NCBI RefSeq assembly: GCF_000424325.1
Contig: NZ_KE384165.1
Coordinates: 22,518-80,259 of the forward strand
Reading direction: 5' to 3'
DNA: 57,742 nt
DNA from: [Clostridium] clostridioforme AGR2157
Lineage (GTDB): Bacteria; Bacillota; Clostridia; Lachnospirales; Lachnospiraceae
Under the pieces are notes generated by a model, which had not been told where the DNA came from, ran no database searches, and was given only the letters and a program-made list of their open reading frames with translations. Position 1 is the first letter of the stretch, and each line of letters begins with the position of its first letter. Below are positions 32,131 to 44,215 of the stretch, piece by piece. The position numbers and the translations under genes were made by a program.

Positions 32131-32721
32131 TTAAAAGGCGCGGAATAAACGGTTCACCCGTCCCACCAGAATTCCTCCCAGAAGGCCAATCAGTGCTCCC
32201 GCCGCACAGCCTGCTGTCAACAGCACCGGCAGGTAGGAAAATACCCCAAATGTATTCACCACAAAAGCCGCCATCAGAAACTGTCCGATATTATGGGCCA
32301 CTCCTCCCAGTATGCTGACTCCCACCATTCCGAACAGCCTGAACCGCTTGCACAGGGCCATGACGGTAAGGCTCAGGGCAGTCCCTGCCAGGCCAAACAG
32401 GATGGCCGAAGGCGGTCCAAACAGAATGCCTGATAAGAGTATGCGCACCACGCTGATAAGAGCTGTCTCTTTTGTTCCCATGCAGTACAGTCCCACCATG
32501 GTCACCAGATTAGCCAGACCCAGCTTTACCCCGGGTGCTCCCAGATATACCGGCACCAATGACTCCACGTATCCCAGCACCAGGGCCAGGGCTGTCAGGA
32601 TCCCAAAAAGGGCTGCATTTCTGGCTGAGGTCCTTGGGGCTGGTTTTGTACCCGGGCCTTTATTTACCGTTACAGCTGATTTTTTATATGATTCTGTGAC
32701 TGTCTTTTTCTGATTCGGCAT
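32131..32721 (-). CDS. Gx-transporter family membrane protein (Hpre_diP_synt_I)
   Basis: Integral membrane protein of 196 residues with a basic N-terminal tail of about 35 residues and then five or six spans. Signatures: SLVPVYLGAPGVKLGLANLV and ISVVRILLSGILFGPPSAIL. Databases often call the family heptaprenyl diphosphate synthase component I, but it is related to ECF S components. It diverges from the FMN-binding-like and NusG-domain-II genes. The Listeria extracellular-electron-transfer locus has, as I recall, a similar pair (EetA/EetB), which suggests a redox role. Confidence 0.85.
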   Translation of the reverse strand: MPNQKKTVTESYKKSAVTVNKGPGTKPAPRTSARNAALFGILTALALVLGYVESLVPVYLGAPGVKLGLANLVTMVGLYCMGTKETALISVVRILLSGILFGPPSAILFGLAGTALSLTVMALCKRFRLFGMVGVSILGGVAHNIGQFLMAAFVVNTFGVFSYLPVLLTAGCAAGALIGLLGGILVGRVNRLFRAF

Positions 32722-32880
32722 GTGATCCTCCAGTCTTCATCGCGGCTTTTCATCCTTTCCCTGTGCTCTGTCCTCAACACGCATATAGTATACCATGCAT
32801 GACCCAAATCTTCCATAGCGCCTTAGATCGTTTGAAAATGGACACGAATGAATTATCACCGCTGCTTGTGTGAAAACTCA

Positions 32881-32909
32881 TTGTATGCAGTGGCGTATTG
32901 TGATAAAAT
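32881..32909 (+). promoter_or_regulatory. Promoter of the FMN-binding-like/NusG-II operon
   Basis: TTGTAT (32881-32886) and TAAAAT (32904-32909) are spaced 17 bp, about 85 bases before the ATG at 32992. Confidence 0.6.
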
Positions 32910-32991
32910 AAACAATATATCCCAACCCAGCGCCGTCCGCATATATTCCGCTCCGGCGCATACTACTATATTTTTTAAAGGAGTGTTTTTC

Positions 32992-33498
32992 ATGAAGAGA
33001 AATACCATCAGTTCCTATGCCAGAAGTTTGATTGGCATTGCTGTCATGGCAGCGTTGTCCTTAGCGGTAATTGCTGTATCAGACCCTTTGTATAAGGCCT
33101 TAAGAGGACCTGTGACCACGGCCCGCCCTGAGGTGCCTCTGGCCGACGGAATCTATACCTATGAAGCTCCGGAACCAGACTCAAACGGTTTCCGGGACAG
33201 AACCACCCTGACAGTATCCGATGGTATCATCGTATCCTGTATCTGGGATTCCTTTAACAGTGACGGGGAAAGCAAACAGAAGCTTTCCATGGAAGGCCAA
33301 TATATTATGACGCCGGATGGGCCTATATGGAAAGCCCAATCAGACAGCGTATGCCGGTATCTGATAGAACACCAGCGTCTGGCCGGTCTGGCTGGTGACG
33401 ACGGATACACCACTGACGCCGTGGCCTCAGTCAGCATCAACGTATATCCATTTATAAACGGAGTGGAGGAATGTCTGCGTCAGGCGGAAATCAAATGA
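32992..33498 (+). CDS. Membrane-anchored FMN-binding-like protein
   Basis: Length of 168 residues; ATG at 32992 after AAAGGAG. One membrane segment (about 12-30) is followed by an extracytoplasmic domain with DGIYTYEAPEPDSNGF, TLTVSDGIIVSCIWDSF and a C-terminal TTDAVASVSINVYPFINGVE. The last piece aligns with the flavin-attachment region of FMN-binding domains (usual form DAVSGATxTS), but here the G-A-T core reads S-V-S, so covalent FMN at a threonine is not expected in the usual way. The stop overlaps the next start (ATGA). Confidence 0.68.
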   Translation: MKRNTISSYARSLIGIAVMAALSLAVIAVSDPLYKALRGPVTTARPEVPLADGIYTYEAPEPDSNGFRDRTTLTVSDGIIVSCIWDSFNSDGESKQKLSMEGQYIMTPDGPIWKAQSDSVCRYLIEHQRLAGLAGDDGYTTDAVASVSINVYPFINGVEECLRQAEIK

Positions 33499-33845
33499 AC
33501 ATATTACAGAAACGAGACGTGATTCTGGCTGCTGCCATTCTATTGATCGCGGCTGCTGCCTTTAGCATCAGCCACTATATCCGCCGCACACCGGCAGCCA
33601 TTGCCCAGGTGTCTGCGAACGGAACCGTAGTGGAAACACTGGATCTCAGCAAGGATACGGAGATAACGGTTACCTCCTCCAACGGCGGCACCAACCACCT
33701 GATTGTAAAGGACGGTGAAATCTGGTGCAGTGAGGCCAGCTGCCCTGATAAGGTCTGTGTCCACCAGGGAAAAAAGCATTTAAACAGCGACACCATTGTG
33801 TGCCTTCCCAATCAGATGATTGTAACCATAACAGGCGGGGAATAA
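33495..33845 (+). CDS. NusG domain II-containing membrane protein
   Basis: Protein of 116 residues with one N-terminal membrane span (about 8-28, ILAAAILLIAAAAFSI) and an extracytoplasmic NusG_II (DUF1312) domain containing IVKDGEIWCSEASCPDKVC and VHQGKK. Starting at the ATG that overlaps the previous stop gives coupled translation; an ATG 24 bases earlier lies too close to its site. The domain occurs in small redox-linked membrane proteins; the close tie with an FMN-binding-like protein and a Gx transporter suggests one membrane redox module. Confidence 0.85.
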   Translation: MNILQKRDVILAAAILLIAAAAFSISHYIRRTPAAIAQVSANGTVVETLDLSKDTEITVTSSNGGTNHLIVKDGEIWCSEASCPDKVCVHQGKKHLNSDTIVCLPNQMIVTITGGE

Positions 33846-33883: not shown

Positions 33884-34264
33884 CTAAAACTTCTTAGTCT
33901 TACCCACTCCGGCCAGAGCTGTCTTGATATCATCAAAGCTCATTCCGCCCGCGGAATCAATGGTGGCAACCACGGCGCCCTCCACCAGAGGACAATCCAC
34001 CATCTCCACCTTCTTTCCCTCGAACATCTCAATGACCATCTCCGTGGTCATGACAGCGCTTCCCAAATCCACCAGAACAAGAACCCCGTCATCGGAATAT
34101 ACAGACTCTATGGCTGCCTGTATCTTCTCAAAGCTGGTTCCAAAGCCGCCGTCGTCCATGCCTCCGGCCGGCGCGATTCTTGCGCCGGGCGCCATGATGG
34201 AGGTCAGCTCCACCACACTTTTTGCCAGATTTTCACTGTGAGACACAATCACCAATCCTACCAT
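33884..34264 (-). CDS. dhaM: PTS-dependent dihydroxyacetone kinase, phosphotransferase subunit DhaM
   Basis: Passes phosphate from HPr to the ADP bound to DhaL. This is the short form of 126 residues with only the EIIA-mannose-like domain. His 9 in VGLVIVSHSENLAKSV is the phosphorylated residue; later come GGMDDGGFGTSFEKIQAAIE and LVDLGSAVMTTEMVIEM. It is the third gene of dhaK-dhaL-dhaM and the last of the glycerol regulon. Confidence 0.94.
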   Translation of the reverse strand: MVGLVIVSHSENLAKSVVELTSIMAPGARIAPAGGMDDGGFGTSFEKIQAAIESVYSDDGVLVLVDLGSAVMTTEMVIEMFEGKKVEMVDCPLVEGAVVATIDSAGGMSFDDIKTALAGVGKTKKF

Positions 34265-34331: not shown

Positions 34332-34955
34332 CTATACCAGCCCCGCAATGACTTCCAGCATATAGGAATAAGAGGTGGCTCCCGGATCCTGATGCCCCAG
34401 TCCCCTCTCTCCCACATAGCTGGCCCGGCCTTTGGTCGCTGCCAGGTCCTTGGTGTGCTCTGCGCCTGCCCAGGCTGCCCTGACTCCGGCCTCCAGCACT
34501 TCCCTGGCGCTCTTTCCCTCTGCCGCCACGTCCTTCATGGCTTTCAGGGAAGGTACCATGGCATCCAGCATGGTGGCTTCCTCCACAGTGGCCTTTCCTC
34601 TTTGCTCCACTGCCTGTACAGCCGTATCCATCATTGACAGGAAATCAGCCATATCCATCTCTTCCTTTCCTGCCAGGGCCATGCCCGCCTTCATATAGGC
34701 CGAACCGTACAGGGGGCCGGAAGCGCCTCCCACAGTGGATACCAATGTCATGCCCACTGTCTTCAGAATGGTCCCTATATCCTTTCCCTCCAGGTCAGGA
34801 AGCTTTCCCTCCACCGCTGCAAATCCCCGCGCCATATTAATGCCATGGTCACTGTCTCCAATCGGCTGGTCCAGCTCTGTGAGATACTCCTTCTCGGCCT
34901 CCATTTTCAGACCGATTGCCTTGATGATCTCCAATACCTTTTTACTGTCTGCCAT
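34332..34955 (-). CDS. dhaL: Dihydroxyacetone kinase ADP-binding subunit DhaL
   Basis: All-helical subunit of 207 residues that keeps ADP as a cofactor and transfers phosphate to dihydroxyacetone on DhaK. The metal/ADP motif GDSDHGINMARGF is present, as are GGASGPLYGSAYMKAG and the C-terminal GHQDPGATSYSYML. It lies between dhaK and dhaM. Confidence 0.95.
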   Translation of the reverse strand: MADSKKVLEIIKAIGLKMEAEKEYLTELDQPIGDSDHGINMARGFAAVEGKLPDLEGKDIGTILKTVGMTLVSTVGGASGPLYGSAYMKAGMALAGKEEMDMADFLSMMDTAVQAVEQRGKATVEEATMLDAMVPSLKAMKDVAAEGKSAREVLEAGVRAAWAGAEHTKDLAATKGRASYVGERGLGHQDPGATSYSYMLEVIAGLV

Positions 34956-35008: not shown

Positions 35009-35995
35009 TTACTTCCAGGCCGGCGTATCCGCCGGAGCATCCAAAAGCTCCCTCAGCTGGTCATCCAGCCGCAGAAGAGAGATGGAGAATCCCTGCATCT
35101 CGATGGAAGTCATGTACTCTCCCACAAAGGTCTTATAAACCTTGATTCCCTTTTCAGCCAACACATCCGAAACCCTGTTATTGATGATAAAAAGCTCCAT
35201 GAGAGGCGTTGCACCTGCTCCGTTGATCATCACAGCTACCTCGCGGCCCTCATAGTCAATGTCTCCCAGTATCTGTGCCAGAAGCATATCCGCCACCTGG
35301 TCCGCAGTCTTCATGGACTCCCTGTGGGTTCCCGGCTCACCATGGATCCCGATTCCCACTTCCATCTCATCATCTGACAGTTCGAATCCCGGCTTGCCTG
35401 CCGCGGGAACCGTACATGGTGCAATGGCTGCTCCCATGGTCCGCACATTGTCGATTACCTTCTGCGCCACTGCATGGACCTCAGCCAAGGAAGCGCCTGT
35501 CTCTGCCATGGCGCCTGCGATCTTATGTACAAACACGGTTCCGGCCACACCTCTGCGTCCCACTGTGTACAGACTGTCCTTCACCGCCACGTCGTCATTG
35601 GTCACCACATACTTCACGGTAATGCCTTCCATCTCAGCCATCTCAGCGGCCATCTCAAAATTCATCACATCGCCGGTATAGTTCTTGACTACCATGAGCA
35701 CGCCTGCATCCGTGGCAATGGCCTTGATTCCCTCATAAATCTGGTCCGGGGTAGGGGATGTGAACACTGCGCCGGCCACAGCCGCATCCAGCATGCCGCA
35801 TCCCACATATCCGCCGTGAGCCGGTTCATGCCCGCTTCCTCCTCCGCTGATCAGGGCCACCTTTCCTTCCTTCTTATTGGCTCTGACCACCACATTGCCG
35901 CAGTCCAGCTTTCTCAGATAACCCGGATACGCCTTAACCATACCCTGTATCATCTGATCCTCTACCAGCGCCACATCGTTGATAAATTTCTTCAT
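35009..35995 (-). CDS. dhaK: Dihydroxyacetone kinase substrate-binding subunit DhaK
   Basis: Binds dihydroxyacetone covalently through a histidine; 328 residues. Motifs are LISGGGSGHEPAHGGYVG at the N-terminus, VVKNYTGDVMNFEMAAEMAE, and VGIGIHGEPGTHRESMKTAD, which carries the active His. It is 53 bases before dhaL and follows the Cys-repeat peptide gene. Confidence 0.95.
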   Translation of the reverse strand: MKKFINDVALVEDQMIQGMVKAYPGYLRKLDCGNVVVRANKKEGKVALISGGGSGHEPAHGGYVGCGMLDAAVAGAVFTSPTPDQIYEGIKAIATDAGVLMVVKNYTGDVMNFEMAAEMAEMEGITVKYVVTNDDVAVKDSLYTVGRRGVAGTVFVHKIAGAMAETGASLAEVHAVAQKVIDNVRTMGAAIAPCTVPAAGKPGFELSDDEMEVGIGIHGEPGTHRESMKTADQVADMLLAQILGDIDYEGREVAVMINGAGATPLMELFIINNRVSDVLAEKGIKVYKTFVGEYMTSIEMQGFSISLLRLDDQLRELLDAPADTPAWK

Positions 35996-36047
35996 ATTGC
36001 GTAAACCCCCTTCTATTTAATAGGCTGCACCAAATGCGGGTATCCTG

Positions 36048-36239
36048 TTACTCGCCCAGACAGTTCATGTCGTTAAGTCCGCAGGTCTTGTCCCCGTCCT
36101 CCTCAACACAGTTCATGTCGTTAAGTCCGCAGGTCTTATCCTCCTTCCCTTCCAGGCAGTTCATGTCATTGAGTCCGCAGGTCTTATCCTCTTCCCCGGT
36201 AATTCCGTTCATGTTATTGATGTCCAGTTTCTTCTCCAT
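36048..36239 (-). CDS. Small acidic Cys-repeat protein, unrecognised family
   Basis: A gene of 63 codons with an excellent ribosome site (GGAGGGC five bases before the ATG at 36239). It encodes four tandem units of about 16 residues. Three contain DKTCGLNDMNC (C-x6-C), joined by short acidic links; the first unit is degenerate (KLDINNMNG) and lacks Cys. The DNA of the units is almost identical too, so they arose by recent duplication. There is no signal peptide or membrane segment. It lies inside the glycerol operon between DUF1667 and dhaK. A metal or cluster carrier, a redox peptide, or a multi-core modified peptide are all possible; no maturation enzyme is nearby. I do not recognise the family. 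Confidence 0.8.
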   Translation of the reverse strand: MEKKLDINNMNGITGEEDKTCGLNDMNCLEGKEDKTCGLNDMNCVEEDGDKTCGLNDMNCLGE

Positions 36240-36408
36240 TTAGAGCCCTCCTTCTTCTTCGGACGGCGCCCCATTCTGCCGGTCCGCCATCCATCAAACT
36301 ACAGTAAGCCGGCCGCCGCCTTATGGCAGCTGCCGACTGACCGGCGCGCCCCTGCTGATTCAGATGGAAACCATATTTCTGTCCCATCTCTCAGCCAGGA
36401 GCACACGA

Positions 36409-36768
36409 CTATAGTACTTCCTTGGTGGCCACTATATCAACTCCCGTGCCGGCCACGTCTGCCACGACCACATCTCCGATGTGGATGGGAGCCTTGACGG
36501 TTACGCCCTTTAAGGCCTTTACACACTGGAATATCTTATCCTTGGGTATATCTTCCCTGGTCTTGACAGATACCATGTCAGCCCGTCCGCCTTCCACCCT
36601 CACAGTGGAGGTGACGATTCGGGTCGGATTGGTCACTTCCTTGCGCGCATATGTCTCGCCCTTCTTGCATGTGTACCCTGTGATGGTCTTGATTTCCCCG
36701 TTTTCCAGTTCAACGGTCAGAGGACACCCCATAGGACAACCGATACAGATAAGTTCTCTCTTTTCCAT
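36409..36768 (-). CDS. DUF1667-domain protein of the glycerol-3-phosphate oxidation cluster
   Basis: Length of 119 residues. N-terminal cysteines in LICIGCPMGCPLTVELENG and TCKKGETYA suggest a metal or Fe-S site. The C-terminal half has RVEGGRADMVSVKTREDIPK. DUF1667 genes commonly follow glpA and a GlpB-like FAD protein in Firmicutes, and this one does so with a three-base gap, so it is likely the small third subunit, in place of GlpC. Confidence 0.9.
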   Translation of the reverse strand: MEKRELICIGCPMGCPLTVELENGEIKTITGYTCKKGETYARKEVTNPTRIVTSTVRVEGGRADMVSVKTREDIPKDKIFQCVKALKGVTVKAPIHIGDVVVADVAGTGVDIVATKEVL

Positions 36769-36771
36769 GGT

Positions 36772-38037
36772 CTATGCCTCCTCTACCTTTATTGTAATCT
36801 TCTTAATACCGGGATGCAACATCAATTTTTCCTTCTGGAGCTTTATCTCCTCCATCTCTCCCGGCGCCATGACCGGACGTTTCCTGTGCATTACCTGCTC
36901 ATCATCAAAGTATACGCCGATGTAGCAGTTTTTATAAACATTTCCAACACGGAAACGTACGATTTGTGTATCCTCCATGCGGTCCGGATGGATGGTGCAG
37001 GGAACCGTATAGCGTACCCCGTCCACGGCTCTTAACTCAATCTCCTGTCCTGACCCGGAGCGCCTGCCGTCCTTCACATATCTGGCTGCGTTCTTACCCG
37101 CTGCCGCTGCCTCCTCTGATACGAAATCCACCAAATCATGAACATGGAGCACGTTGCCGCAGGCAAATACGCCTTCGATATTGGTTTCCAGGCTTTCGTT
37201 CACCACCGGCCCTGATGTGACACGGTTCAATTCCACGCCCATTCCGTTAGACAGCTCATTCTCAGGAATCAGTCCCACGGAGAGAAGCAGAGTGTCACAG
37301 GTATAATCCTCCTCGGTTCCCGGTATAGGCTTACCCTTCTCATCCACAGCAGCCAGGGTGATTCCCTCCAGCCGCTCCTTTCCCCGTATGTCAACCACGG
37401 TATGGCTCAGCTTCAGCGGTATGCCGTAATCATCCAGACACTGTACGATATTACGTTTCAGTCCTCCGGAATAAGGCATCAGCTCTGCCACCACCTTCAC
37501 CTTGGCGCCCTCTAATGTCATACGCCTGGCCATGATAAGGCCGATGTCGCCGGATCCCAGGATAACCACTTCCCGCCCCGGCATGAAGCCCTCCATGTTC
37601 ACCAGACGCTGGGCCGTACCCGCGCAGTAGATGCCCGCCGGCCGGTAGCCCGGTATGTTGAGCGCCCCTCTGGAACGCTCCCTGCATCCCATGGCCAGTA
37701 TGACAGCCTTGGCCTGTATCTCAAACAGTCCCTCTACCCTGTTCATGGCTGTGACCACCTTGTCATGGCTGATATCCATAACCATGGTGTTTAACTTATA
37801 TTCTATATTCCTCTCATACACCTGTTTTTCAAACCTGGCAGCGTACTCCGGGCCTGTCAGCTCCTCCTTGAATGTATGGAGGCCGAATCCATTGTGGATG
37901 CACTGGTTTAATATGCCTCCCAGTTCCTTATCGCGTTCCAGGATCAGGATGCTCTCTATCCCGTTATCCCTGGCCGCTACAGCTGCAGCGAGACCCGCAG
38001 GACCGCCCCCGATTATGACAATATCATATTCCCTCAT
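36772..38037 (-). CDS. FAD-dependent oxidoreductase, GlpB-like partner of GlpA
   Basis: NAD(P)/FAD oxidoreductase of 421 residues. The FAD site IVIIGGGPAGLAAAVAARD opens it; the second nucleotide site is VVILGSGDIGLIMARRM, and the C-terminal FAD motif is NIEGVFACGNVLHVHDLVD. LGGILNQCIHNGFGLHTF near residue 45 contains a conserved Cys. It lies between glpA (17-base gap) and DUF1667. The trio most likely passes electrons from glycerol-3-phosphate to NAD or another carrier (inference). Confidence 0.9.
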   Translation of the reverse strand: MREYDIVIIGGGPAGLAAAVAARDNGIESILILERDKELGGILNQCIHNGFGLHTFKEELTGPEYAARFEKQVYERNIEYKLNTMVMDISHDKVVTAMNRVEGLFEIQAKAVILAMGCRERSRGALNIPGYRPAGIYCAGTAQRLVNMEGFMPGREVVILGSGDIGLIMARRMTLEGAKVKVVAELMPYSGGLKRNIVQCLDDYGIPLKLSHTVVDIRGKERLEGITLAAVDEKGKPIPGTEEDYTCDTLLLSVGLIPENELSNGMGVELNRVTSGPVVNESLETNIEGVFACGNVLHVHDLVDFVSEEAAAAGKNAARYVKDGRRSGSGQEIELRAVDGVRYTVPCTIHPDRMEDTQIVRFRVGNVYKNCYIGVYFDDEQVMHRKRPVMAPGEMEEIKLQKEKLMLHPGIKKITIKVEEA

Positions 38038-38054
38038 CTTGCGCGCGCCCCTTT

Positions 38055-39494
38055 CTATATTCTGTCCTTATTAGTTCCCACTACAAGCTTCGAATCCCCG
38101 CCGGCCTTTGTAATCTCCGTCATGGGAAGTCCCAGCTCACGGTGAAGCAGTTCCATGGACCTGGGGGTGCAGAACCCTGCCTGGCAGCGGCCCATTCCCG
38201 CCCTGGTCCTGCGCTTGATGCCGTCCAGGGAACGCGCCCCCAGGGGCCTGTGGATGGCATCCAGGATTTCTCCCTCCGTGACCATCTCGCAGCGGCAGAT
38301 GATATTGCCGTAAGCAGGATTCTGCTTGATCAGCTCTGCCTGCTCCTCTTTTGTAAGTGTATCCGGGTCCAGAATTCCCTTGCGGCTGCCGTTAAACTGC
38401 GGATTGGGCTCCAGTCCCAGCCTTTCCTTAAGGATTCCCGCCACCATTCTTCCAATGGCAGGACAGCTGGTAAGACCCGGAGACTCAATTCCCGCGCAGT
38501 CTACGAATCCAGACGCGTCCTCCAGCTCCTTTATGATGAACTCATGGTGATCCTCATGGGCCCTGAGTCCCGCAAAGGATGTGATGACCTGACGCATGGG
38601 AAGGTCCTTTACATTCATCCCTGCTTTTGCAATCAATTCGTCCAGTCCCTCCCTGGTGGTAGCCGTGGCCTCCTTATCCTCAATATCAATAGCCGTGGGC
38701 CCTACAATCAGGTTGCCATGGACCGTAGGGGAGACCAGGACGCCTTTTCCATACTTTCCCGGAAGGGCGAATATGGTGCGGCTCACATGATTTCCGGCGC
38801 TCTTATCCAGCAGGCAGTAGTCTCCCCTTCTGGGGGTTATGTGTATCTTTGTCCCGCTGACCATGTTGTGGAACTTGTCGGCATGGACTCCTGCCGCATT
38901 GACCACATAGCGGGTCTCATACACGCCCTGGTTTGTTTCCAGCGCCCATCCGCCCTCTATCCTGCGGATATCCGTCACCTCAGTGTTAAATTTAAAGTCC
39001 ACGCCGTTGGTATAGGCATTTTCCGCCAACGCAATGTTTAGATTAAAGGGACATACGATGCCTGCCGTAGGTGCATAGAGAACACCTGCCACCTCATCTG
39101 CCAGATTGGGCTCCATTTCTTTTATTCTTGCCTTATCCGTGATGATTTCCAAATCCTTTACACCGTTCTTAACCCCCCGCTCATACAGAGCTTTCAGGTC
39201 CGGCAGAGACTCCTCATCCAGACATACCACAAAGGAACCGCAGGGATTAAAGGGAAAATCCAGCTCCTTTGCCAGTTCAGGCATGATCTGGTTTCCTTCC
39301 ACATTCAGCCTGGCCATAAGCGAGCCTTCCGCCGCGTCATATCCGGCATGGACAATGGCACTGTTAGCCTTGGAAGTACCGCAGCACACATCCTCCTCCC
39401 GTTCCAGGACACAGGCATTCACCTTATACCGTGACAGCTCCCTGGCAGATGCAGCGCCGGACACGCCGGCCCCGATTATTATTACGTCATACAT
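38055..39494 (-). CDS. glpA: Anaerobic-type glycerol-3-phosphate dehydrogenase with C-terminal [2Fe-2S] domain
   Basis: Oxidises glycerol-3-phosphate to dihydroxyacetone phosphate. The DAO-type FAD domain begins DVIIIGAGVSGAASARELSR, and the domain spans about 1-370. The C-terminal BFD-like domain has the cysteines of IICRCEMVTEGEILDAI and AGMGRCQAGFC, which bind a [2Fe-2S] cluster. The ATG at 39494 has GGAAGG. It follows glpF across a terminator hairpin and leads the GlpB-like and DUF1667 genes. Confidence 0.92.
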   Translation of the reverse strand: MYDVIIIGAGVSGAASARELSRYKVNACVLEREEDVCCGTSKANSAIVHAGYDAAEGSLMARLNVEGNQIMPELAKELDFPFNPCGSFVVCLDEESLPDLKALYERGVKNGVKDLEIITDKARIKEMEPNLADEVAGVLYAPTAGIVCPFNLNIALAENAYTNGVDFKFNTEVTDIRRIEGGWALETNQGVYETRYVVNAAGVHADKFHNMVSGTKIHITPRRGDYCLLDKSAGNHVSRTIFALPGKYGKGVLVSPTVHGNLIVGPTAIDIEDKEATATTREGLDELIAKAGMNVKDLPMRQVITSFAGLRAHEDHHEFIIKELEDASGFVDCAGIESPGLTSCPAIGRMVAGILKERLGLEPNPQFNGSRKGILDPDTLTKEEQAELIKQNPAYGNIICRCEMVTEGEILDAIHRPLGARSLDGIKRRTRAGMGRCQAGFCTPRSMELLHRELGLPMTEITKAGGDSKLVVGTNKDRI

Positions 39495-39736: not shown

Positions 39737-40450
39737 TTACATCCACGGAATTGCCTGATACAATAACACTGCCGCTACTGCGCCCACAACCGGTCCGATG
39801 ATGACAACCGGCGCATAGCCCCAGTTGGAATCGCCTTTACCCTTAATTGGCAGGACAGCATGTGCAAGACGTGGTCCAAGGTCACGTGCAGGATTGATGG
39901 CATAACCGGTCAGACCCCCCAGAGACATACCGATTGATACGATGATTCCGAATACAAGCAGTTTATCCACGCCTGGAGCAATGCCGGATACCTGGCCGAT
40001 GCCTTTGATTGCAAATACAAGTACGAATGTGCCAACTACCTCGCTTAAAATGTTGCGTCCCATGTTAGGAACGGATGGTCCTGTACAGAAGGTTCCCAGC
40101 TTGGTTGCCTCTGACTCGGTTGCGTCATACTGGTCCTTGAACAGAAGGTACACAATGACAGCGCCCACAAAAGCACCTGCGAACTGTGCAACAATGTATC
40201 CGGGAACAAGTCCCCATGCCATGCTTCCATCCACTGCCAGGGCAATGGTAAGTGCCGGATTGAAATGCGCGCCGGATGCGGCGCCGAAGATGAACGCTGG
40301 CAGCATAACCGCAAAGCCCCATGCAAAGGTAATCTGGATGGAACCAGCCCCCTTCATGCCTGATTTATTGAGCGTCACGTTTGCTACAACGCCGTCACCT
40401 AAGATGATCAGTATCATGGTCCCCAAAAACTCTGCAATATATGGTAACAT
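39737..40450 (-). CDS. glpF: Glycerol uptake facilitator (aquaglyceroporin)
   Basis: Channel of 237 residues with six spans. The two NPA boxes are SGAHFNPALTIALAV and YAINPARDLGPRLAH; the Asp after the second NPAR marks the glycerol-conducting type rather than a water-only channel. It is the third gene of glpP-glpK-glpF. Confidence 0.95.
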   Translation of the reverse strand: MLPYIAEFLGTMILIILGDGVVANVTLNKSGMKGAGSIQITFAWGFAVMLPAFIFGAASGAHFNPALTIALAVDGSMAWGLVPGYIVAQFAGAFVGAVIVYLLFKDQYDATESEATKLGTFCTGPSVPNMGRNILSEVVGTFVLVFAIKGIGQVSGIAPGVDKLLVFGIIVSIGMSLGGLTGYAINPARDLGPRLAHAVLPIKGKGDSNWGYAPVVIIGPVVGAVAAVLLYQAIPWM

Positions 40451-40555: not shown

Positions 40556-42722
<2,167 letters not shown>

Positions 42723-42978: not shown

Positions 42979-43644
42979 TTATTTTAACAAAGTGACGATT
43001 TCATCTATGGTCTTGCTCCCCATCACAATCCTGCTGTCATTTATGATCATCATAGGCACCCGTTTAATATCATATTTGGCCACCAGGTCATCGTAAAGGG
43101 CCGCGTCAATCATCTCAGCCTCAATATTCGGATTCAGGAACGCAATCTGCTGGCAGGCTGTCACTACCAAAGGACAGTGATGGCACGCAAGGGACACGCA
43201 TATCTTTATATTCGTCCTCTTATCCAGCCGCTCAATCTTCTTTCTGGTACCCTTTGGCACCTCCTGTCCCGGCCCTGCCAGGTTATAGACAGCCAGCACA
43301 AAGGAGTTGATTTCCCTGCCTCCGGGCACCCCGTGAAAAGCAGCCCGCCCATAGGCCCCGTCCTTATACAGTCCTGTTACCGGCAGCCACGCCGTATTCA
43401 GTTCCAGCACCTGGTCCGCCTCATCCGGCCCGTATAACTCCAGCTCCAGGTTAGGGCTTACAGAAACGATTGCCCTGAGAAAGGAGGCCATCTCCCTGTC
43501 CTTTTCCCCGGACAGGTCCACCACAGCCCTGATTGTCACCCTTTTCTCCATCCTGCCAAAGATACCGGCCAGCTGCTCCTTAAGTCCCTGGTCCACCAGG
43601 CTGCTTTCTCCTGGAATCGTATTCAAATCAATCGTAACATCCAC
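42979..43644 (-). CDS. Stand-alone AhpF N-terminal-like double-thioredoxin-fold protein
   Basis: Length of 221 residues, matching only the N-terminal part of AhpF (two fused thioredoxin folds). The redox motif is CHHC in NIKICVSLACHHCPLVVTAC, and RVPMMIINDSRIVMGSKTID closes the second fold. The FAD/NADH domains of AhpF are absent. It follows ahpC by 4 bases, so it probably reduces AhpC, taking electrons from thioredoxin reductase or another flavoprotein (inference). Confidence 0.87.
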   Translation of the reverse strand: MDVTIDLNTIPGESSLVDQGLKEQLAGIFGRMEKRVTIRAVVDLSGEKDREMASFLRAIVSVSPNLELELYGPDEADQVLELNTAWLPVTGLYKDGAYGRAAFHGVPGGREINSFVLAVYNLAGPGQEVPKGTRKKIERLDKRTNIKICVSLACHHCPLVVTACQQIAFLNPNIEAEMIDAALYDDLVAKYDIKRVPMMIINDSRIVMGSKTIDEIVTLLK

Positions 43645-43648
43645 CTCC

Positions 43649-44215
43649 CTACAGCATTCCCACCAAATCCAGGCTGGGTGTCAGCGTCTCTTCTCCCGGC
43701 TTCCACTTTGCAGGACACACCTGGTCTCCATGTTCCTCCACGAACTGGGCGGCCTGAACCTTGCGCAGCAGCTCCCGGGCATTCCGGCCGATTCCCATGT
43801 CATGAATCTCATATGCCTTAATCCTGCCTTCCGGATTCAGGATAAAGGTACCCCGAAATGCCTGGCCTTCCTCCTCGTCCAGCACGCCGAACTCTCTGGC
43901 AAGCTTCCCGGCCGGATCTCCCAGCATGGGATAATGTATCTTTTTGATGGTATCCGAGGCATCCGCCCATGCCTTATGGACAAAATGGGTATCCTCCGAC
44001 ACCGAGTAAATCTCACACCCGGCTTCCTTAAATTCCTCATAAAAATCAGCCAGGTCCCCTAACTCCGTAGGGCACACAAAGGTAAAATCAGCCGGGTAGA
44101 AAAAAAATACAGACCAGTGTCCCAGTGTGTCCTCCCTGGTCACATCCATGAACTTTCCCTGATAAAACGCCTGTACCTTAAATTCCCCGATGGTCCTGTT
44201 AATCAGATTCCCCAT
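43649..44215 (-). CDS. ahpC: Peroxiredoxin AhpC
   Basis: Typical 2-Cys peroxiredoxin of 188 residues. The peroxidatic Cys is in YPADFTFVCPTELGD and the resolving Cys in HGDQVCPAKWKPGEET. IGRNARELLRKVQAAQFVEE is the usual C-terminal segment. The ATG at 44215 has AAAGGAGC. A dyad CTGATATCAG (44282-44291) lies upstream; no clear PerR box was seen. Confidence 0.95.
   Translation of the reverse strand: MGNLINRTIGEFKVQAFYQGKFMDVTREDTLGHWSVFFFYPADFTFVCPTELGDLADFYEEFKEAGCEIYSVSEDTHFVHKAWADASDTIKKIHYPMLGDPAGKLAREFGVLDEEEGQAFRGTFILNPEGRIKAYEIHDMGIGRNARELLRKVQAAQFVEEHGDQVCPAKWKPGEETLTPSLDLVGML

Follow-up and report, generated by a model that had tools for sequence, protein, structure and literature searches.

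A Cys-repeat peptide gene from [Clostridium] clostridioforme and its recurrent neighbour, an altered AhpF-type domain

The peptide gene and its surroundings

The DNA analysed here, a stretch of 57,742 nucleotides from [Clostridium] clostridioforme AGR2157 (the window), carries a run of genes in the order ahpC, ahpFn, glpP, glpK, glpF, glpA, glpB, DUF1667, peptide, dhaK, dhaL and dhaM. The peptide gene, the subject of this work, is referred to as PEP. The features of the run are as follows.

43649..44215, minus strand: AhpC peroxiredoxin (TIGR03137, E 1.4e-89; 298.9 bits, above the cut-off of 272)
42979..43644, minus strand: AhpFn, a stand-alone AhpF-type double thioredoxin domain (CHHC active site, cis-Pro loop KRVPM)
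42153..42722, minus strand: GlpP antiterminator (PF04309, E 1.8e-67)
40556..42151, minus strand: GlpK-like glycerol kinase (named from sequence and context)
39737..40450, minus strand: GlpF, MIP channel (Pfam)
38055..39494, minus strand: GlpA-like DAO flavoprotein with a BFD [2Fe-2S] domain (Pfam, NCBIfam)
36772..38037, minus strand: GlpB-like FAD/NAD flavoprotein, Pyr_redox_2 (Pfam, NCBIfam)
36409..36768, minus strand: DUF1667 protein (PF07892, E 6.2e-37)
36302..36343, minus strand: G+C-rich RNA hairpin between DUF1667 and PEP, with no T-run after it
36247..36253, minus strand: Shine-Dalgarno sequence AAGGAGG, 7-nt spacer before the PEP ATG
36048..36239, minus strand: PEP, acidic Cys-repeat peptide gene, 63 aa (open reading frame, repeats, relatives, dN/dS)
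36204..36227, minus strand: Cys-free N-terminal cap unit LDINNMNG, aa 5-12 (N[ML]NG conserved in a 32-row alignment)
36156..36188, minus strand: PEP Cys unit 1, DKTCGLNDMNC, aa 18-28 (from the sequence)
36108..36140, minus strand: PEP Cys unit 2, DKTCGLNDMNC, aa 34-44 (from the sequence)
36060..36092, minus strand: PEP Cys unit 3, DKTCGLNDMNC, aa 50-60 (from the sequence)
35009..35995, minus strand: DhaK (PF02733, E 2.5e-136)
34332..34955, minus strand: DhaL (named from sequence and context)
33884..34264, minus strand: DhaM-type EIIA (PF03610, E 1.8e-28)

The best NCBIfam match of the GlpA-like protein is type 2 glycerol-3-phosphate oxidase (E 3e-89, under the cut-off). Together with the GlpB-like and DUF1667 proteins, the GlpA-like protein with its BFD [2Fe-2S] domain may form a three-part dehydrogenase (window positions 36772-39494, minus strand). 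Genes for Gx-transporter-like, FMN-binding-like and NusG domain II proteins adjoin the operon at 32131-33845 and are kept in several relatives; the NusG domain II protein was named by Pfam and the other two by eye.

PEP is read from 36239 to 36048 on the minus strand as 63 codons that begin with ATG, and its product is MEKKLDINNMNGITGEEDKTCGLNDMNCLEGKEDKTCGLNDMNCVEEDGDKTCGLNDMNCLGE. A Cys-free cap is followed by three 16-aa units that each end in DKTCGLNDMNC and are spaced by exactly 16 aa. At the DNA level, copies 2 and 3 of the repeat differ from copy 1 by 3 and 4 bases, respectively, all of them at third codon positions. The longest word that the protein repeats has 12 aa, whereas 10,000 residue shuffles reached 6 at most.

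The opposite strand is also open across PEP, with a similar frame of 69 aa (36034-36243). Among 21 pairs of PEP relatives, dN of the minus-strand protein was 0.01-0.13, and dN/dS was 0.01-0.22 in the 13 pairs whose dS was unsaturated. As can be seen, selection tracks the minus-strand PEP protein and not the opposite-strand frame. Since the gene is conserved at 47 loci (see below) and is under purifying selection, a chance origin is untenable, and PEP is confirmed as a real gene that encodes a conserved small protein.

An earlier note on this DNA had proposed a 63-codon gene with a strong ribosome site that encodes a real, functional and possibly undescribed peptide, and the start codon, the AAGGAGG with its spacer, the 47 loci and the low dN/dS values bear this out. 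The three DKTCGLNDMNC units that it described are there and are identical; the fourth unit, which it took for degenerate, is the cap LDINNMNG, conserved in relatives and not decayed. It also placed the gene correctly between DUF1667 and dhaK in the window, and the run is now seen to extend upstream through glpB-glpA-glpF-glpK-glpP to the AhpF-type domain and AhpC.

Folding of the intergenic RNA upstream of PEP (36240-36408, minus strand) was compared with that of shuffled sequences and gave a z of -6.3. Thirteen pairs of the central hairpin are kept in most of 7 genus sequences; no two-sided compensatory change was found among these seven, and the covariation term was unfavourable. Inspection by eye revealed no PerR-like box upstream of PEP.

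Relatives of the peptide and the repeat unit

Relatives of PEP were confirmed by tblastn at 47 loci, with identities of 56-95%. Their hosts are labelled mostly as Lachnospiraceae or as genera of this family, and a few are MAGs labelled Oscillospiraceae or Clostridiaceae. The peptide was found in 8 of the 17 genus genomes, in 5 of the 299 genomes of an even family sample (one of the five, G286, has a Cys-poor form) and in 2 of the 391 genomes of an even class sample (one of the two, G689, has a Cys-free form). The gene is therefore sparse. Profile searches of 391 class and 397 family genomes for a wider repeat family contributed just one weak relative, which is Cys-free. Nothing else was clear-cut, and five hits at E 0.024-0.049 (four within frames 357-708 aa long, the fifth in a broken frame) were left uncounted.

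No convincing relative of the peptide was found in Pfam, NCBIfam, PHROG or PDB. The best Pfam match of the window peptide was CFEM (E 0.33, under the cut-off), four peptides submitted to NCBIfam matched no family, the best PHROG match had an E of 0.57, and a 32-row profile retrieved no PDB match at E 1. A Pfam scan of 32 relatives gave an isolated match of one member to KH_DUF2096_C (E 0.0055), CFEM matches in four members (best 0.043) and one other single match at 0.086. AlphaFold2, run with the 32-row alignment, produced a model with a mean pLDDT of 57.8, a pTM of 0.16 and no assigned secondary structure; a model of such low confidence would be compatible with a disordered peptide but is not proof of one. 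The annotation libraries searched miss the family, probably because its members are short and repetitive. No published account was recognised, by title or abstract opening, in the literature on AhpF/AhpC, PDO, DUF1667, ranthipeptides and Lachnospiraceae Cys proteins, and the peptides apparently constitute an undescribed small-protein family. Mobile spread was considered and rejected: the window peptide had no match in plasmids, the Cys-poor relative had none in plasmids or phages, and viral contigs gave no match.

Two relatives occur in other settings. The Cys-poor one (L096:6039-6236, plus strand, 65 aa) has four repeat units with one lone Cys; it sits in an arsenic operon, flanked by genes for an ACR3-like transporter and an ArsD-like protein, and a relaxase-like gene lies upstream. 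The Cys-free one (L103:1393-1584, plus strand, 64 aa) is composed of N[ML]NG units and has a nucleoside-type permease before it and an HD-GYP-like protein after it (all of these neighbours were named by eye). Since no AhpFn of the kind that accompanies PEP was found in the genomes of these two relatives, the motif has another or a wider role.

A census of the repeat was taken from 49 distinct but related peptides of the loci, comprising 196 units; L054 and L059 (the same as L096) do not fit the pattern and are left out, and the L057 peptide is cut short of its cap. The units have the form x-x-[hydrophobic]-x-[ND]-[ML]-N-x or x-G-W-x-N-L-N-x. Both Cys residues of the C-x6-C pair are present in 136 units and both are missing from 60, while none of the 196 has a single Cys; many of the peptides are close kin, and the retentions and losses of the pair are therefore not independent events. 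There is no Cys outside the units in any of the 49 peptides. It follows from this split that the two Cys residues of a unit act as a pair.

Among the Cys-free units, 48 of 60 are N-terminal caps, e.g., LDITNMNG or GWGNLNG. Twelve peptides contain a single inner unit that lacks Cys, Y..A, H..G, A..S or A..G replacing C..C, and these peptides span several groups (the MAGs L022-L024/L028, Roseburia-like peptides, L044/L051, L055 and L099). N-M-N is retained even in units devoid of Cys. The number of Cys units per peptide is three in 36 peptides, two in 12 and four in one, and the mean net charge is -11.4. For a protein that has no predicted fold, the all-or-none behaviour of the Cys pair across 196 units gives a clean evolutionary record of its thiols functioning in pairs.

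Recurring neighbours and the AhpF-type domain

The neighbours of PEP were counted by tblastn in the 47 loci, with flanks of at most 6 kb. GlpK and GlpF were each found in 31 loci, GlpA and GlpB in 30, DUF1667 in 28 and DhaK in 16; AhpFn and AhpC lay within the flanks in 23 and 22 loci, respectively. There are two main arrangements: PEP either directly follows DUF1667 (24 loci) or lies beside ahpC-ahpFn, mostly divergently. Twelve loci (L033, L035, L037, L038, L039, L041-L044, L049, L051 and L055) contain Ahp genes but no glp or dha gene in the flanks; in L041 and L043, AhpC, AhpFn and PEP follow each other in line. Clusters that recur in at least 10 of the 47 neighbourhoods are limited to glp, dha, ahp and the reading frame on the strand opposite PEP. 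Ten other neighbours were scanned against Pfam and revealed no common theme, and none of the ten is a known maturase by Pfam name. ORFs of ca. 320 aa beside AhpFn, which fall into two groups and are reductase-like by length, were rejected as candidates, since the one scanned from each group was a DNA polymerase III delta and an SseB-like protein, respectively.

The glycerol setting of the peptide is thus common, not constant. DUF1667 is present in 16 of the 17 genus genomes and was rejected as the partner of the peptide, being too common. Six peptide-negative congeners (G002, G005, G013, G014, G015 and G016) have related glpB-DUF1667 genes; the glpA end is visible in five of them, and in G013 it is cut by the contig end. 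GlpB is 71-73% identical in those five and may therefore belong to a different operon lineage, which makes the contrast among congeners suggestive, not a controlled test. A glycerol-specific role was rejected as the main reading, in view of these six congeners and of the 12 Ahp loci with no glp gene in the flanks.

AhpFn follows the peptide more closely. Within the genus, a stand-alone AhpFn is present in 7 of the 8 peptide-bearing genomes (the G009 copy is broken by stops) and in none of the 9 others. Since ahpC-ahpFn often lies beyond the locus flank, AhpFn was also searched for genome-wide. It was found in 42 of 45 genomes with a peptide locus (a count that leaves out L009 and L011), being full-length in 40 and a fragment at a contig end in 2, one of which still shows CHHC and ERVPL. 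No AhpFn was found in the remaining three, G315, G333 and G327. G315 has AhpF only as a fused form elsewhere in the genome; G333 has only a fused AhpF, and the 1.8 kb of contig that remain upstream of its glpP contain no AhpFn; and the 4.6-kb contig of G327 stops just past ahpC. In G315 (C. porci; L161), a DNA-alkylation gene adjoins glpP with no ahpC-ahpFn between them, unlike in congeners, and the peptide is kept. A fused AhpF is additionally present in at least six of the peptide-bearing genomes.

As for linkage, AhpC or AhpFn is on the same contig as the peptide in 42 of 47 loci: inside the locus in 24, and with AhpFn 6.4-7.0 kb away in 18. In the five unlinked cases, the genes are on different contigs (L009, L015 and L031) or none was found (L012 and L030).

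In the family sample, the AhpF double-thioredoxin domain was detected at E 1e-15 in 54 of 299 genomes. An AhpFn with CxHC and [RK][VI]P is present in four of them, exactly the four genomes with a Cys-type peptide. Motifs were read in 19 of the other 50 (the remainder are known by frame length, G233 being a broken frame): [MK]SVP is found in 16 fused proteins and in the short frames from G031 and G220, G213 has RSVPC, and CxHC with [RK][VI]P occurs in none of the 19. In the class sample, where an AhpF-type domain was detected at E 1e-25 in 28 of 391 genomes, CxHC with R[VI]P was seen only in the window's own genome among the motifs read, which do not include that of the L192 domain. AhpFn, usually with AhpC, is a steadier partner of the peptide than the glycerol genes are. 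Genes that are linked may, however, be inherited or transferred together even if they do not interact.

The earlier note had suggested testing whether such peptides always lie beside glpA, DUF1667 and dhaK and held that the peptide could carry metal or an Fe-S/redox load for the GlpA-type complex. Neither constant company nor a special tie to this complex is supported by the counts given above, the 12 Ahp loci with no glp or dha gene and the six congeners. A redox role, which it also considered, is probable, with the AhpF-type domain as the recurring partner, and no maturase was recognised beside PEP, as it had said; its interpretation is, overall, partly supported.

At 221 aa, the AhpFn of the window aligns with the double-thioredoxin segment of TIGR03143 (E 4.7e-62, profile positions 343-554) and of TIGR03140 (E 3.3e-34). 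It has the double-thioredoxin domain with one CxxC that is expected of AhpF and lacks the fused FAD thioredoxin reductase; its scores of 210.3 and 118.3 bits are below the cut-offs of 687.65 and 502.9 because the flavoprotein half is absent. The nearest solved chains are 5h29 and 6il7, and 1zyn and 1hyu are also matched.

The AhpFn of peptide-bearing genomes, 43 in number, were set against 22 AhpF domains from other settings, 20 fused and 2 stand-alone; four of the fused ones belong to genomes that encode the peptide as well as a fused AhpF. Every one of the 43 AhpFn has CHHC, CQHC or CSHC, and its [RK][VI]P precedes a residue other than Cys. In each of the 22 other domains, the corresponding motifs are C[TSHA][MF]C and [MK]SVP, the latter mostly with Cys after it. 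In an unrooted tree, a single branch with support of 100/99 separates the two sets. Over the last 125 aa, AhpFn has a mean net charge of +2.3, compared to -3.25 for the fused and -2.0 for the two stand-alone domains. Of 22 group-specific positions, 12 lie in the catalytic half (from residue 149 on) and 10 outside it; at seven (110, 156, 181, 183, 188, 195 and 208) the two sets share no residue, and six of these seven are in the catalytic half. The cis-Pro loop of thioredoxin folds contacts substrates, and the change at AhpFn positions 194-198 therefore suggests that AhpFn uses a different redox partner than the ordinary AhpF domain. Stand-alone or short AhpF-type domains were also seen in three peptide-free genomes (L093, L094 and L095); the motifs of the first two are of the ordinary fused type, and the third looks like a broken fused frame.

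A possible role in peroxide reduction and known systems

In AhpF, electrons of NADH pass to the Cys pair of the flavoprotein, then to the double-thioredoxin domain and on to AhpC, as outlined in PMC12288474. We tentatively propose, at slightly under an even chance, that the PEP product is a flexible and acidic protein, multivalent in dithiols, and acts as a dedicated thiol-disulfide partner of AhpFn in AhpC peroxide reduction. Each 16-aa unit would form an intramolecular disulfide loop with its C-x6-C pair and open it again. AhpFn has no fused flavoprotein, and the acidic peptide would exchange electrons with the more positive AhpFn, the simplest form being a mobile carrier, or a reservoir, placed between AhpFn and a reductase of the cell; the L-x-N-M-N motif may be the docking piece. 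From the sequences we infer that the peptide would bind AhpFn and form disulfides, with AhpFn possibly the donor and possibly the acceptor of electrons. The GlpA-like enzyme may be linked to peroxide: in the window, the system would be attached to glycerol-3-phosphate oxidation, a plausible peroxide source, and if the GlpA-like enzyme makes H2O2 with stray oxygen, then a peroxidase in the same cluster makes sense.

A dedicated thioredoxin reductase for the system was considered and rejected. Two genes of the window's genome score above the cut-off of the TrxB family, and neither belongs to the PEP cluster; the first has a glycine-reductase-like gene set around it (named by eye) and the second unrelated genes, and the surroundings of both show no special donor.

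Among other explanations, the peptide might bind metal, its C-x6-C pairs and acidic linkers holding Zn, Fe or an Fe-S cluster, perhaps as a store or chaperone; this was the idea that the earlier note preferred. Four or more Cys, the number that a metal site would also require, are present in each of the 49 counted peptides, the linkers are acidic, the low-confidence model is structureless, and a ZIP-type transporter adjoins the locus in L044, with the same cluster in L051. However, no metal gene recurs, the recurring partner being a thiol oxidoreductase, and Cys-free inner units retain the remaining motif; nothing found points to a metal or Fe-S load, and C-x6-C is not known as an Fe-S spacing. 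We consider metal binding unlikely.

Alternatively, the peptide might be only a docking scaffold, with L-x-N-M-N tethering AhpFn or the AhpC decamer and disulfides that merely stiffen the loops. Retention of the motif in Cys-free caps and inner units, multivalency and opposite charge to the more positive AhpFn are in line with this. The strict pairing of Cys, with at least two pairs in 49 of 49 peptides, suggests that the thiols themselves matter, and a pure scaffold is likewise an improbable reading.

Tandem near-identical units in variable number, a small and possibly disordered chain and reuse of the motif in unrelated operons would also fit a multi-core RiPP, in which an enzyme encoded elsewhere would cross-link each unit as a core, with AhpFn as a thiol helper. 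Moreover, C-x3-D, the motif of ranthipeptides, is present in 121 of the 136 Cys units. In the remaining 15, N replaces D; there is no leader distinct from the units, and the clusters found in at least 10 of the 47 neighbourhoods include no maturase candidate (rarer clusters were mostly unscanned). We give this possibility little weight. Finally, an accessory subunit of the glycerol-3-phosphate enzyme GlpA-GlpB-DUF1667, to which the position of PEP directly after DUF1667 in 24 of 47 loci would point, is very improbable given the six congeners with glpB-DUF1667 and no peptide and the 12 peptide loci whose flanks contain Ahp but no glp genes.

Returning to the dithiol partner of AhpFn, there is a reasonable chance that the peptide is a new kind of redox carrier. 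A bolder version, which we hold possible but rather doubtful, is that a gene-encoded, unstructured multi-dithiol electron carrier or thiol reservoir does for a peroxidase system the job of thioredoxin or glutathione, with its own co-evolved AhpFn, within a wider L-x-N-M-N-G repeat family reused without Cys pairs in arsenic and transport operons. Many gut clostridia have no glutathione. Anaerobic gut clostridia must clear peroxide, and the peptide, should the proposal be true, would be an undescribed component of the AhpC system. What was a Cys-rich small ORF now reduces to a three-protein question for the test tube.

Thioredoxin, glutaredoxin and NrdH are small dithiol redox partners, as is proposed for the peptide, but no thioredoxin fold was seen in the latter, which has no family or PDB match and a structureless low-confidence model. 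Metallothioneins are small, Cys-rich and flexible, like the peptide; however, their Cys residues form C-x-C clusters, whereas those of the peptide are spaced as C-x6-C, and Pfam gave no metallothionein match. PDO (TIGR02187; solved as 1a8l and 2hls) is, like AhpFn, a stand-alone double thioredoxin fold of ca. 220 aa, but AhpFn matches TIGR02187 under the cut-off (E 6.2e-33) and is nearer to TIGR03143. Seven distant stand-alone hits in the class sample also differ from AhpFn, having CPHC and a VPK loop (GVPK in six). AhpF (TIGR03140) and the AhpF homolog (TIGR03143) share the double-thioredoxin domain with AhpFn, and the neighbouring AhpC is a normal TIGR03137 member. In contrast to AhpF, AhpFn has no flavoprotein domain in its polypeptide, carries CxHC and [RK][VI]P, and is accompanied by a Cys-repeat peptide that travels along with it.
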